Shown piece by piece: positions 34,613 through 59,651 of a stretch of DNA of 64,000 nucleotides. The notes beneath the pieces are model-generated. The model was not told where the DNA came from. It worked only from the letters and a program-made list of their open reading frames with translations, and made no database searches. Origin of the DNA: Acidobacteriota bacterium (lineage in GTDB: Bacteria; Acidobacteriota; Vicinamibacteria; Vicinamibacterales; SCN-69-37); assembly GCA_020853395.1 (NCBI GenBank), contig JADYYY010000009.1, positions 1-64,000 of the forward strand. The letters are read 5' to 3'. How positions within the stretch are numbered: the first letter of the stretch is position 1; each line of letters starts with the position of its first letter. The position numbers and the translations under genes were made by a program.

Positions 34613-35212
34613 TCACTTCTCCACTTTCAGATGGCAGCCGGTGAGCACCGACGGGCCCTGCGTGCGGAGCCCCTCGACGAGCGCGCGTGCCGCCTCCGCC
34701 GACTGGCATTCGTGCCAGTGATCGTTGACGCCCACGACCGGCGCGCGATCGCACGCGCCCAGGCACTCGACTTCGAGCAGCGTGAACTCCCCTGCCGGAT
34801 CCGTCTCGCCCGGCGCGATGCCGAGCGCCTGCGCCAGCTCCTCGGTGACCCGCTCGGCGCCGAGCAGCGCGCACGACAACGTGCGGCAGACCTGCAGGAC
34901 GTACTTGCCGACCGGCCGCGTGTAGAACATCGTGTAGTACGACACGACGTCCTCGACCTCCGCCGTCGTGCACCCGATGGCCTCGGCCACGTGGCGCATG
35001 GCGTTCAGCGTGAGATAGCCCTGCTGCCGCTGCGCCAGGAACAGCGCCGAGAGAATCGCCGACTTGCGCCGCTCCGGCGGGTACTGCGCGCAGAGCCGTT
35101 CGAACGTGGTGCGGTTCTCCGGCGTGTAGGCGAACGGCGGCCCTTCTTCCGGGATCGCCCGCGCGGACTTGTGGTGCCCGCGACCGTAGTCCATGACCGG
35201 ATGGAAACTCAT
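34613..35212 (-). CDS. nuoE: NADH-quinone oxidoreductase subunit E
   Basis: A 199-residue thioredoxin-fold subunit carrying the 2Fe-2S cluster N1a. Ligands are in VCRTLSCALLGAE and VECLGACDRAPVV (C-x4-C ... C-x3-C). ATG 35210-35212 follows AAGGAT at 7-nt spacing; an ATG 14 codons upstream would extend into the heptamer repeat (PSALCPLPYK), which is unlikely. The gene is separated from nuoD by the 0.5-kb repeat island. Confidence 0.94.
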   Translation of the reverse strand: MSFHPVMDYGRGHHKSARAIPEEGPPFAYTPENRTTFERLCAQYPPERRKSAILSALFLAQRQQGYLTLNAMRHVAEAIGCTTAEVEDVVSYYTMFYTRPVGKYVLQVCRTLSCALLGAERVTEELAQALGIAPGETDPAGEFTLLEVECLGACDRAPVVGVNDHWHECQSAEAARALVEGLRTQGPSVLTGCHLKVEK

Positions 35213-35226
35213 GGCTTGATCCTTGT

Positions 35227-35670
35227 AGGGCAAAGGGCAAAGGGCAGAGGGCAAAGGTCAGGAACGAGCTGGCGCTGGCCAACTATTCCTTTGGCGCGGA
35301 TCCCGGCGCCCTTGCCGAACGACCAGTGGGCCAGCGTCAGTTCACCCTTGCCGAACAACCAGTGGGCCGGCATCAGTTCACCCTTGCCGAACAACCAGTG
35401 AGCCAGCGTCAGTTCACCCTTGCCGAACAACCGGTGGGCCGGCATCAGTTCACCCTTGCCGAACAACCGGTGGGCCAGCATCAGTTCAGCCTTGCCGAAC
35501 AACCAGCCGGCCAGCGCCAGGTCACTCCTGCTGAACAACCAGTGAACCAGCGTCAGTTCACTCCTGCCGAACAACCGGTGGGCCAGCATCAGTTCACCCT
35601 TGCCGAACAACCAGTGGGCCAGCGTCAGTTCATTCCTGACCTTTGCCCTCTGCCCTTTGCCCTTTGCCCT
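35227..35670. repeat. repeat island bounded by a perfect 38-bp inverted repeat (nuoD-nuoE gap)
   Basis: The left arm 35227-35264 and right arm 35633-35670 are exact reverse complements over 38 bp. Each arm is itself about five tandem heptamers of the type AGGGCAA. Homology continues inward: the left flank (to about 35283) is an imperfect inverted copy of part of the 36-bp unit that forms the array inside. The whole could fold into a long stem. It sits in the longest gap of the nuo operon, between the nuoE Shine-Dalgarno and the nuoD stop. No transposase is present. It is probably a non-autonomous or slippage-grown element. Confidence 0.9.
35311..35634. repeat. nine tandem copies of a 36-bp unit
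   Basis: Nine contiguous 36-bp units start at 35311, 35347, 35383, 35419, 35455, 35491, 35527, 35563 and 35599. Each has the form CTTGCCGAACAACCAGTGGG then CCAGCRTCAGTTCACC, differing at a few sites (for example CCGGTGGG for CCAGTGGG); unit 6 is the most diverged. Because 36 is a multiple of three, frames stay open on both strands: plus LPNNQWASVSSP, minus GELTLAHWLFGK. Neither frame has a clear start signal, so coding is unsupported. Confidence 0.92.
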
Positions 35671-35704
35671 GCTGCCTGCCCTGCTGCCTGCCCTGCGGCC
35701 TGCG
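35669..35704. repeat. three tandem 12-bp units
   Basis: CTGCTGCCTGCC is repeated at 35669-35680 and 35681-35692, with a diverged third copy CTGCGGCCTGCG to 35704. It directly abuts the right inverted-repeat arm and ends 10 bp before the nuoD stop. It is another slippage-type tract. Confidence 0.8.
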
Positions 35705-35713
35705 CTTCTCATC

Positions 35714-40718: not shown

Positions 40719-42557
40719 GTGCCTGTGCATCCTGTGTACTCGCCGCTCGTGGTGTTCGCCGTCGTGCTCGCGGCGACGGTCCTCGTCGTGCCGGCCGTGC
40801 GCCGCATGGCGCAGAGCGGCGGCCTGTTCGAGGCACCGGTCGAGGATCGCTGGCATCGCCGGCCGGTACCCAAGCTCGGCGGCGTCGCGATCGCAGCGGT
40901 CTTCCTGCCCGTCGCCTGGTACCTCACAACCTTCGGCTTCCACGACCACCAGGCTCACCTGCGCGCGCTCGTCACGACCGCCGGCGCCCTCTTCCTGGTC
41001 GGCGTCGTCGACGACGTGTGGCCGATGCGGGCGATCACGAAGCTCGCCTGGCAGACGGCGGCCGCCTCGCTGTTCGTCTGGACCACCGGCGCCGCGTCGG
41101 TGACGGGCATCGCGTGGATCGACGTCGCGCTGTCGGTGACCTGGTACGTCGGCATCACGAACGCCTTCAACCTGCTGGACAACATCGACGGGCTCGCGGC
41201 CGGCATCGCCGGCATCGCGGCGACGTTCATGGCGGTGGCGCTCGTGCTGCCGGGCGACGGATCGCTCGTGGCGCTCGCGCTCGTCACGAGCGCGCTCGCG
41301 GGCGGCGCGTTCGGGTTCCTGGTCCACAACTGGCATCCCGCCTCGATCTTCATGGGCGATGCGGGCAGCCATCTGCTCGGCTCGGTCCTCGCCGGTGCGA
41401 CGCTGCTCGCCGCGACACATCTCGGCAACGGCACCAGTCCCGGCGCGGCGATGGCGATCGTGCTGCTCCTCGTGCCGTGCGCCGACACGCTGCTCGTGAC
41501 GCTGACGCGCCAACTGGCGGGCCGCAGCGCGTTCGTCGGTGGACGCGACCATCTCTCCCATCGAATCGTCGCGCTCGGCATGCCGGATTCGAAGGCCGTC
41601 CTGGCGCTCTACGCGTTGGCTGCCGCGGGCGGTGGTGCCGCGATCGGGCTGCAGACGCTGTCGGCCCCGGTCGGCTGGATGCTGGTGGCGGCCTACGGGA
41701 CGCTCGTCGCGGCGGGCGGCGTCTATCTGGCACACGTCGAGACCGCCGCGGGCGGTGCGGCGCCGTTGCCGGGAGAAGTCGCGACGCGCTACCGCACGTA
41801 CGAGCTGCTGTTCGACGCGATCCTCATCGCGGTGGCGTACTACCTCGCGCTCGTCCTCAGATTCCGGGATCCCGACCAACTGCAGGCGTTCCTGGGCTCC
41901 TTCTCCAGCATTCTCCCGCTCGTGCTCGGGCTGCACCTCTCGGCGCTGTGGCTCGTCGGCTGCTATCGCCGGCCGCTCTCCGGCACGGGCAGCGCGGACG
42001 TCCTGACGATCGCCAAGGGCGCGGCGCTCGGGTCGGCCGCGAGCGTGATCGCCGTGCTGTACCTCACGCGCTTCGAAGGCTACTCGCGCCAGGCGTTCGC
42101 GGTGGCGGCGGTGTTGGTCGTTCTGCTGCTCGCCGGCGGGCACGCGTCGCTCAACGCGCTCGACGAGTATCTCCGGCGGCGAAAGCCGGCCGGCCCGCGC
42201 GCGCTGATCTACGGCGCCGGTCCGAGGGGCGCGCTGGCGGCGCGCGAGCTCTCGAGCAACCCGGCACTCGGCCTCGCGCCGCTCGGCTTCATCGACGACG
42301 ACAGCGCGCGCCTCGGCGACCGCCCGGAGGGACTGCGCGTGCTCGGCACGATCGCCGATCTCGACGCACTCCTGGACGCCAATCGCACGGTGACGACGAT
42401 CGTCGTGAGCAGCGACGATTGCCCTCCGGCGCGCTTCGCACAGCTCTGCACGATCGCCGCGCGGCACGACGTGACCGTCCGCCAACTGCGCCTGCGGCTC
42501 GACGAGATCGACACCGGCGGCGCGCGCCGCGCTCGCGGCATCGTGCGCTTCCGGTAG
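40719..42557 (+). CDS. WecA/TagO-type sugar-phosphate transferase fused to a CapD-like nucleotide-binding module
   Basis: A 612-residue fusion. The N-terminal half (to about residue 345) is an undecaprenyl-phosphate N-acetylhexosamine-1-phosphate transferase: GVVDDVWPMR, AFNLLDNIDGLAAGIAGI, SIFMGDAGSHLLGS and the loop GGRDHLSHRIVALG. About four more helices follow (residues 375-490) and then a Rossmann module RALIYGAGPRGALAARELSS with GLAPLGFIDDD, like the N-terminal part of CapD/WbpM/FlaA1-type epimerases; no SDR catalytic domain follows. The start is a GTG (40719; GTGs at 40725 and 40734 are alternatives). It probably starts polysaccharide synthesis on the lipid carrier. Confidence 0.85.
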   Translation: MPVHPVYSPLVVFAVVLAATVLVVPAVRRMAQSGGLFEAPVEDRWHRRPVPKLGGVAIAAVFLPVAWYLTTFGFHDHQAHLRALVTTAGALFLVGVVDDVWPMRAITKLAWQTAAASLFVWTTGAASVTGIAWIDVALSVTWYVGITNAFNLLDNIDGLAAGIAGIAATFMAVALVLPGDGSLVALALVTSALAGGAFGFLVHNWHPASIFMGDAGSHLLGSVLAGATLLAATHLGNGTSPGAAMAIVLLLVPCADTLLVTLTRQLAGRSAFVGGRDHLSHRIVALGMPDSKAVLALYALAAAGGGAAIGLQTLSAPVGWMLVAAYGTLVAAGGVYLAHVETAAGGAAPLPGEVATRYRTYELLFDAILIAVAYYLALVLRFRDPDQLQAFLGSFSSILPLVLGLHLSALWLVGCYRRPLSGTGSADVLTIAKGAALGSAASVIAVLYLTRFEGYSRQAFAVAAVLVVLLLAGGHASLNALDEYLRRRKPAGPRALIYGAGPRGALAARELSSNPALGLAPLGFIDDDSARLGDRPEGLRVLGTIADLDALLDANRTVTTIVVSSDDCPPARFAQLCTIAARHDVTVRQLRLRLDEIDTGGARRARGIVRFR

Positions 42558-57947: not shown

Positions 57948-58024
57948 GGGGTCGTAGTTCAGTTGGTTAGAACGCTGGCCTGTCACGCCAGAGGTCGCGG
58001 GTTCGAGTCCCGTCGGCCCCGCCA
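57948..58024 (+). tRNA. tRNA-Asp(GTC), CCA encoded
   Basis: A complete 77-nt cloverleaf: acceptor GGGGTCG/CGGCCCC (one G-T pair), anticodon stem CTGGC/GCCAG around CTGTCAC (anticodon GTC), T-loop TTCGAGT, discriminator G and encoded CCA. A damaged copy of its 3' end lies 75 bp downstream. Confidence 0.97.
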
Positions 58025-58098
58025 TTTCCCTCAGGTCCATTCGGTCGACGCCGGTTCCGACGCGCTCGGGCGCTCTCGGTGAGCGGCTCGCTCGCCTT

Positions 58099-58125
58099 TC
58101 GGGTACGAGTCCGGTCGGCCCCGCC
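58099..58125 (+). repeat. truncated copy of the tRNA-Asp 3' end (possible attachment-site remnant)
   Basis: CGGGTACGAGTCC and GGTCGGCCCCGCC reproduce the T-arm and 3' acceptor of tRNA-Asp with two substitutions (A for T and G for C). The T-stem and acceptor can no longer form because the 5' partner strands are absent. Duplicated tRNA 3' ends commonly mark integrase attachment sites; no integrase is present, so this would be a scar. Confidence 0.7.
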
Positions 58126-58988
58126 GTTTTCCAGAAGAATCTGCGAAGTGCGCGCGGGATCTCCCCGGCTGGTGCCGCGCGCCGTCCGGACACAATTGGA
58201 CCGCAGGGCTGACCAGGATCCGCCCGATCACGAGATGGGATGACACTCCCTGGACCAGCGCGCCCGAATGCGCGGCCAGATCGTGTCGCCGCGCCGGTCG
58301 ATCGCGCGTTTCTGACGAGCGGACGATCGATTCGGCGGCCAGATCGCCGGCCGGCACGACCAGATCGCGCGATCCCGCGAGCCGATCGCGCGAAATCCGA
58401 ACCAGATCGCCGGGAATCGTTGCCAGCGTGCGCCGTTCCTTCGCCCGATCACTGGGTTCGGTCGCACCAGTGAAGTCGTTGACTGTCAGCAACATGCGGT
58501 GCGCGCCACTGCCACGGGCCATGTTCGAAACGGGTGCGCGCGCGATCGATGACCCCGCGGCAGCTCCGGGCTCGTGGAACCAGGTTGCGCGAGTGGGTCC
58601 TTGCCGATCTGATCTCGGGTGAGTGCCACGCCGATACCGGGTCCGGGGCTGGCACGACTCGGGCGTATCGCTCCTGCTCCTACCCTGCGCCTCGAACTTC
58701 GACGTACGGCCCTCTCCAGTAACCGCCCGGGTGGCTCCGCATTTCACCCGTGCAGCATGATCCCAATCGGCGCGTGCGAACTCCGGGCCGACGAGTCAGG
58801 TGCGCACAATGGCCATCTGCCCCATGTCTCCCGCCGAGATCTCGTCCGGTGCGTGACGCGCGACTGGGCCACGCTTGCGCGCGCCCAGGATCGGCACTGG
58901 CTGCGAGAGAAGCGAAGCCGGGCAGGCGGCCGACGCCTGCCGCACGACTGCATCGCGGGAGCACGGCGCAGGACCTCGCCTCGCGTGA
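58126..58988. other. gene-poor interval with a minisatellite and no convincing gene
   Basis: This stretch of about 0.86 kb between the tRNA-Asp fragment and the next gene has several open frames of 60-240 codons on both strands. None has a Shine-Dalgarno, family motif or normal composition; all are rich in Arg/Ser/Pro. Apart from the 21-bp repeats (58213-58464) I see no RNA gene or coding sequence. It is probably decayed or accessory DNA. Confidence 0.6.
58213..58464. repeat. degenerate 21-bp tandem repeat (about 12 units)
   Basis: Units begin every 21 bp from 58213; CCAGATCG recurs at 58276, 58339, 58360 and 58402, spaced 63, 21 and 42. A good unit is CCAGATCGCGCGATCCCGCG plus one base, followed by diverged copies (GCCGATCGCGCGAAATCC and so on). 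Units at 58234 and 58318 are the most diverged. Since 21 is a multiple of three, every open frame encodes heptapeptide repeats (plus frame ARPDRAI-like; minus frame RDLVVPA-like). No start signal supports translation. Confidence 0.75.
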
Positions 58989-59387
58989 TCAGCCCTTCCC
59001 GCGCTGCCGGTTGCTGAACTTCCTGCCGGACGCTTTGCGGATCGCCGCGCGCTCGTCGCGCGCTGAGCCCGCGTCCTTCTTCTGCGCTTCGCTGCGGCGT
59101 CGCTCCCAGGCGGCGCGGAGCTTCGCGCGGGTCGCGTCGGACACGGTGTAGCCCTTCGGCCGTCCGCCCTTGCGGTTGGTCGCCATCGTGGGCAGCGAGG
59201 CGCTCCAGGCGGCGCTGACGCCGTCGACAACGATGTCGCGCGTCGACTTCACGATGTGCTGCAGTTCGGCGTTCAACTCGGCGCGCTGCTGCTTCAACGC
59301 GTCGAAACGTCGCGCCAGTTGTCCCAACGCCGCACCGATGTTCTCCGCCGTGTACTCGAGTGCCCCTGCTCGTCGCTTCTTGGCCAC
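58989..59387 (-). CDS. small basic hypothetical protein with AT-hook/NUMOD3-like motif
   Basis: A 132-residue, strongly basic protein. The N-terminal half (YTAENIGAALGQLARRFDAL then KQQRAELNAELQHIVKSTRD) is helical, perhaps coiled coil. The second half has KGGRPKGYTVSDATRAKLRA with AWERRRSEAQK, which recalls NUMOD3-type DNA-binding motifs and AT-hooks (GRPKG). The start is GTG 59385-59387 with GAGAGG 8 nt upstream and TATACT further upstream. It lies alone in the accessory patch downstream of the tRNA genes. A nucleoid- or DNA-binding role is an inference. Confidence 0.7.
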   Translation of the reverse strand: MAKKRRAGALEYTAENIGAALGQLARRFDALKQQRAELNAELQHIVKSTRDIVVDGVSAAWSASLPTMATNRKGGRPKGYTVSDATRAKLRAAWERRRSEAQKKDAGSARDERAAIRKASGRKFSNRQRGKG

Positions 59388-59405
59388 GTAGTTACCTCTC
59401 GACAG

Positions 59406-59423
59406 AGTATACCCGCAGTGCGG
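59406..59423 (-). promoter_or_regulatory. -10 element and short palindrome upstream of the basic protein gene
   Basis: TATACT (59406-59411, minus strand) is adjacent to an interrupted palindrome CCGCAGTGCGG (59413-59423) inside the expected spacer region. No good -35 hexamer was found, so the promoter may need an activator or the palindrome may bind a regulator. Confidence 0.4.
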
Positions 59424-59651
59424 AAATAAGCAGGATGAACACACGCTCGTAGAAACACGCACCAGACTACTTACTCGAAATGGACAGAGACCCGGCTCGG
59501 CGGACGGCCGGATGGGTGCGCCGAGATCCGATCTGGTTAGGAGTGGAGCTCCTGCGAAGTCCTATCGTCGACGACCGATGTCGCGGCCGCGGGTTCGGGC
59601 GAGCGTGATGGCGCCCCGCCGAGAGTGCAGCCGCCGCCCTCTTCTCGCGCA

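Follow-up and report, generated by a model that had tools for sequence, protein, structure and literature searches.

A decaying 21-bp minisatellite beside a tRNA-Asp gene is probably one copy of a low-copy, core-plus-array repeat in a member of the Vicinamibacterales

Introduction

Minisatellites are tandem repeats with a unit of about 10-100 bp. Bacterial intergenic minisatellites, or VNTRs, are made up of head-to-tail imperfect units in intergenic DNA, while in the iterons of plasmids direct repeats of about 20-22 bp follow one another in helical phase. BrickBuilt of Porphyromonas gingivalis is a minisatellite-bearing MITE with a 23-nt unit, a leader and a tail; it is present in 19 copies, of which 4/19 have at both ends a 12-nt inverted sequence resembling the ends of IS5-family elements (PMC4596501).

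Here we describe a degenerate 21-bp tandem array located downstream of a tRNA-Asp gene of a Vicinamibacterales bacterium. The window, i.e., the whole stretch of DNA analyzed, has a length of 64,000 nucleotides, and the copy within it is termed W. W shares head-to-tail imperfect intergenic units with bacterial VNTRs but is more decayed than a typical VNTR typing locus, the identity between its units being 48%. It also has direct repeats of about 21 bp in common with plasmid iterons. Compared to these it is far more degenerate, and when the eight neighbouring ORFs were searched with Pfam, none gave a replication-initiator family.

In layout W resembles BrickBuilt. Both have an imperfect unit (21-22 bp here and 23 nt in BrickBuilt), and both occur as dispersed, intergenic, lineage-restricted copies with an adjoining non-repeated leader in common. 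W differs from BrickBuilt in having two firm copies and one probable copy compared to 19 (PMC4596501), and neither a tail nor, in W and C4, inverted ends were found. We do not claim membership of BrickBuilt, because no inverted ends were found and no sequence is in common as far as tested. We consider it probable that W is an old, decaying, non-coding minisatellite which, together with a core of about 80 bp, forms a low-copy dispersed repeat of the lineage.

Materials and Methods

W denotes the window copy on contig C9, while C2, C4, C5, C11, C13, and C21 are other contigs of the same genome. The set of relatives consisted of 60 genomes, none of them a second genome of the same genus, and the order set of 162 genomes with the genome of W included. 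The intergenic status of the copies was deduced from ORF lists and codon scores and not from annotation. Codon scores were trained on 181 long ORFs; 77-codon windows of genes scored 0.466 +- 0.226 and shadow frames -0.398 +- 0.426. Two sequence-only models were used, R1 built from the W and C4 copies, and R2 built from three copies by the addition of C11.

Repeat periods were surveyed in an unselected sample of 1,098,318 bp, which comprised the window, 20 stretches of the same genome, and DNA from nine other genomes. Of these nine, six had been chosen for unrelated reasons and were sampled by contig number or fixed position. Arrays with a Tandem Repeats Finder (TRF) score of 80 or more were counted.

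Results

A Decayed 21-bp Array beside the tRNA-Asp Gene

The W array starts 212 bp past the 3' end of the tRNA-Asp gene (57948-58024). Autocorrelation, the check that the preliminary description had proposed for its 21-bp minisatellite at this place, bore the claim out. For positions 58213-58464 the autocorrelation at lag 21 was 0.472; 2000 dinucleotide-preserving shuffles gave 0.281 +- 0.030, and the observed value was not attained in any of them. The mean over lags 21, 42, 63, 84, and 105 was 0.433 (0.281 +- 0.016 in the shuffles; 0/2000 reached it), and when periods from 10 to 44 were scanned, 0/2000 shuffles attained the observed five-lag mean at any period. The repeat cores were also confirmed to recur at multiples of 21 bp: exact copies of CCAGATCG are located at 58276, 58339, 58360, and 58402, with spacings of 63, 21, and 42. 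Seven of the nine GATC sites in 58237-58467 are found in one phase modulo 21. With its units head to tail and a periodicity above chance, the W array is a minisatellite.

The array is much decayed. Ten units had a mean pairwise identity of 48%, and because the units are on average only this much alike, the TRF call is limited to a short part of the array (Table 1). Nor is the signal unique in the genome, although it is clear relative to shuffled DNA: within 464 kb sampled from this genome, the period-21 score of four further stretches was at least as high as that of W (0.491, 0.439, 0.439, and 0.437 compared to 0.436). The top-scoring of the four is another 21-bp minisatellite, and some of the four may be coding.

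Table 1. Positions in the window of the W array, the adjoining core and the ORFs through the array.
Feature	Position	Strand	Evidence or remark	Codon score
Degenerate 21-bp tandem array	58237..58467	-	About 10-11 units, read on this strand as ...GCGATC; autocorrelation, units in register, unit identity	
Least decayed stretch of the array	58359..58410	+	Only part called by TRF; period 21, score 62	
Core, non-repeated segment of about 80 bp adjoining the array	58426..58505	-	Common to C4 (52/80), probably to C11 (44/80)	
Best-conserved core piece, GGCGAAGGAAMGGCG	58431..58445	-	Exact matches in the genome in W and C4 only	
ORF through the array, 79 aa	58228-58467	-		0.017
ORF through the array	58240-58473	+		-0.300
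ORF through the array, 238 aa	58031-58747	-		-0.137

Minisatellites of Other Periods

The survey identified 46 arrays with periods from 6 to 261. The period was 20-23 bp in three of these, GATC was found in the unit of six, and GCGATC in the unit of one. In the 464 kb from the genome carrying W there were 16 arrays at this TRF threshold (>= 80). Minisatellites are therefore ordinary here, and 21 bp is not a favoured period; the suggestion that a unit of two helical turns is notable in itself was not upheld by this 1.10-Mb sample.

Other arrays were noted as well. The window contains a cluster of minisatellites at 35209-35712, with units of 7, 36, 14, and 12 bp, the 36-bp array having 9 units and a score of 487. 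The sequence GGAACGARCTGRCGC, found in and beside this cluster, recurs within arrays of longer units on contig C5 (L321:3039-3973). Another 21-bp minisatellite, with the unit CGCTCCTGACGGCTCTTTCCT and a sequence unrelated to the W array, is located at C2:418574-418693 (L317:18574-18693).

A Sister Copy and a Probable Third Copy

A search of the genome with the array DNA gave a second place, C4:40882-40979 (E 0.0038), where three consecutive, overlapping matches were found to a pattern in which GATC occurs three times in steps of 21 bp. The C4 array (40810-40998) consists of nine units of 21 bp; core and array lie within about 40730-40998, flanked by one ORF that encodes a PEP-CTERM protein and one that encodes a ferritin-like protein. 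The similarity between W and C4 extends past the arrays, as the segment of about 80 bp that comes before the array on the minus strand of W aligned ungapped to C4. The next-best place for this core among 1,005,122 positions of the genome reached 44 identities with W and 45 with C4 as the query. When units at equivalent places in the two arrays were compared, the head unit was identical in 16/21 positions, whereas the others were not visibly more alike than non-equivalent units. W and C4 are thus intergenic copies at separate places with a non-repeated flank in common, and to judge from the alignment C4 is clearly a sister copy of W.

The third copy is probable. On C11 a core is found at about 180362-180475 on the minus strand, and about 12 bp from the core match lies an array of 22-bp units, at 180487-180799 and beyond, with about 14 units of CGCGCGATCCATCTTGGGTGTG. 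Model R1 ranked C11:180362-180474 third in the genome with 22.6 bits, a score at noise level, since the same search gave 24.2 bits in another genome. The summed identity of the C11 core to W and C4 was 88, compared to 81 for the next-best place, and the identity to W alone (44/80) was tied by an unrelated place. The C11 core points away from its array, whereas the W and C4 cores point into theirs. An arrangement of two arrays flanking a central core was considered and rejected, as a PWM of the C11 unit found no C11-type units in the other flank of W. With model R2 the next four matches in the genome did not adjoin arrays, and the repeat family therefore did not grow. We regard C11 as a probable third member.

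Distribution among Relatives

When the array DNA was searched against the 60 relatives, the array was found in its own genome only, all other matches being to tRNAs, holB, and the gene of the neighbouring basic protein. Model R1 found no member above noise in the 60 relatives outside the genome of W, and the same was true for model R2 in 40 genomes and for the C11 array in the 60 relatives. Over the 162 order genomes, R1 at E <= 3e-4 gave matches in three genomes: the genome of W, where they were the two copies used to build the model, and two further genomes in which the score (23-24 bits) was at noise level. A scan of genome contigs for the core motif gave at least 117 stretches scattered over many phyla. 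Among the 80 loci listed plus L151-L153, only L153, which is C4, and L151 passed the summed-identity threshold, and L151 is without 21-bp periodicity. The genome-wide search that had been proposed for the repeat was in this way productive within the genome, with one clear and one probable sister, but no standout copy was found elsewhere among the 162 genomes of the order. No description of this repeat was found in the literature outside subscription journals.

Coding Potential and RNA Structure

The ORFs that run through the array (Table 1) had codon scores like those of shadow frames. In C4, one frame of the minus strand scored in the range of genes (0.360), while the matching frame of W did not, and no consistently good frame was common to the sister arrays. 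No Pfam family was identified, and tblastn of genome contigs found no relative among 585 candidate stretches. The best match in a relative's genome (E 5e-5) was without a 21-bp array. Fold z-scores of W were -0.55 on one strand and -0.02 on the other, no better than shuffles; that of C4 was -1.17. The covariation term for the three sequences W, C4, and C11 was unfavourable, and no Rfam family was found on the W array.

Surroundings of the Array

The DNA between the tRNA-Asp gene and the gene of the basic protein (58025-58988) looks like decayed DNA. A 30-bp repeat of the 3' end of the tRNA-Asp gene, at 58103-58132, shows 87% identity to 58001-58030, which is what one would expect of an old attachment-site scar or of a partial duplication of the tRNA gene. 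Further downstream, a fragment at 58822-58950 is 79% identical to C21 (L148:2972-3099). The C21 counterpart starts an ORF beside an AbiEii-like ORF (below the Pfam cut-off, E 0.0063) and a PIN-domain ORF, and the fragment in the window looks like a decayed gene start. The gene order downstream of tRNA-Asp was not conserved in five genomes of the family, so that no empty site can be named.

The gene at 58989-59462 (minus strand) encodes a small basic protein without a confident Pfam family. It contains a GGRPKG motif, which we take to be AT-hook-like. A paralogue is located at C11:81907-82245 (L149:2907-3245), and the family genomes G003, G004, and G007 contain DNA matches to the gene. Its DNA matches elsewhere in the genome of W are without a 21-bp array, and 0 matches to the GCGATC array pattern were found in G003, G004, and G007. 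The proposed link between the array and this neighbouring protein was consequently not borne out.

Discussion

Taken as an old minisatellite with a core, the repeat would have arisen when several intergenic places received a copy of the core together with one or a few units. At each place the array would then have grown and turned over on its own, by replication slippage or unequal recombination, and point mutation since then would have blurred the W array. The core may have been copied by a transposase acting in trans or by ordinary duplication. A search for terminal inverted repeats found none, with scores of 7.5 in W (mean of shuffles 7.8) and 8.5 in C4 (mean of shuffles 8.1), and the ends are not sharply defined. 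Most likely the W array has no present function. If it is an ordinary repeat, its significance is largely confined to annotation, where it explains the spurious pair of ORFs along the array. It would also represent a small, lineage-restricted family of core plus minisatellite in an order that is poorly described.

Two other readings concern a gene and a lost element. The preliminary description had raised the possibility of a degenerate heptapeptide-repeat gene, and a decayed or small gene of this kind would lie on the minus strand, where the ORFs of 79 and 238 aa traverse the array. The presence of these ORFs follows from 21 being a multiple of three, and their codon scores, like the searches for protein relatives, speak against a gene. 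The core seemed at first to offer better support, as the W-C4 alignment looked synonymous and one frame was protein-like (p 0.001, one of 18 tests). The differences by codon position were nevertheless 9, 11, and 15, and so not concentrated at third positions, the frame contains a stop codon in the C4 core, and it gave no signal in comparisons with C11 (p 0.755 and 0.136). A protein-coding core was therefore rejected. The 22-bp unit of C11 would in addition break a heptapeptide. With the array ORFs scoring as non-coding and no good frame common to the sisters, we find a heptapeptide-repeat gene very improbable. Somewhat less improbable, yet still unlikely, is that W is a remnant of a lost integrative element inserted at tRNA-Asp, with the array as a passenger of the island. 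The repeated 3' end of the tRNA gene, the variable gene order behind it, and the gene fragment resembling C21 all favour such an element, while the scanned ORFs included no recognisable integrase gene and no tRNA was present in the examined flanks of C4. A lost element would concern the arrival of the stretch and is compatible with the minisatellite reading.

A further alternative is that the units of W are binding sites for a protein which bends DNA, organises the chromosome or is sensitive to methylation, and that GCGATC is presented on one helix face every two turns. The best-conserved six columns of the unit are GCGATC in W, C4, and C11 alike, whereas the other unit positions differ among the three arrays. 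Compared with simulated neutral decay, the unevenness of column conservation gave p 0.14 for W, 0.035 for C4, and 0.041 for C11; the uneven conservation in C4 and C11, though not clearly in W, is not predicted by neutral decay. The phasing of GATC sites in W fits such an array, as do the GCGATC-bearing arrays of 20-23 bp in several other genomes of the order and the presence in the genome of a methyltransferase gene of the Dam-type family PF02086 (C13:58343-59005, 132.7 bits). Against it, helical periods were not preferred in the survey, the conservation within W was not significantly uneven, and no such array was found in the relatives carrying the gene of the basic protein. Neither GATC nor GCGATC was over-represented (observed/expected 0.97-1.0 for GATC). 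The conservation of GCGATC in three related arrays is the best evidence for this alternative and the reason for which we retain it, as an unlikely one. The binding-site reading put forward in the preliminary description is therefore weakened rather than dismissed, and a protein-binding role of the W array is at present unsupported.

The same reading can be extended to the order. A pattern of three GCGATC at 20-23-bp steps matched in 44 of the 162 order genomes, although many matches were single and may be coding. True GCGATC-bearing arrays of 20-23 bp were found, for example, in G111, G117, G087, G084, G129, G142, and G051. They are like W in period and in carrying GCGATC in the unit, and unlike W in the rest of the unit, with no common core above noise by R1. 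The search itself required GCGATC and was without a fair control, since the reversed GCGATC pattern used as a control contains CTAG, which is depleted in the genome of W (0.16); the matches show that such arrays exist but do not demonstrate enrichment. It seems quite improbable that these arrays are recurrent chromosomal sites of the order, with GCGATC cores about two helical turns apart in lineage-specific units, recognised by one architectural or methylation-sensitive protein common to them all. If the GCGATC arrays of this order were protein-binding sites, they would constitute a new kind of landmark on the chromosomes of these bacteria.

Contig C212 of genome G117 has a 19-kb region with six arrays whose units measure 20-23 bp (L374, 2256-16194). 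Several of these have flanking pieces in common and lie next to palindromes, for example GGCGGCTAAAGCCGC and GCGCACGCTTTAGCGTGCGC, and they may have grown in tandem from REP-like palindromes.
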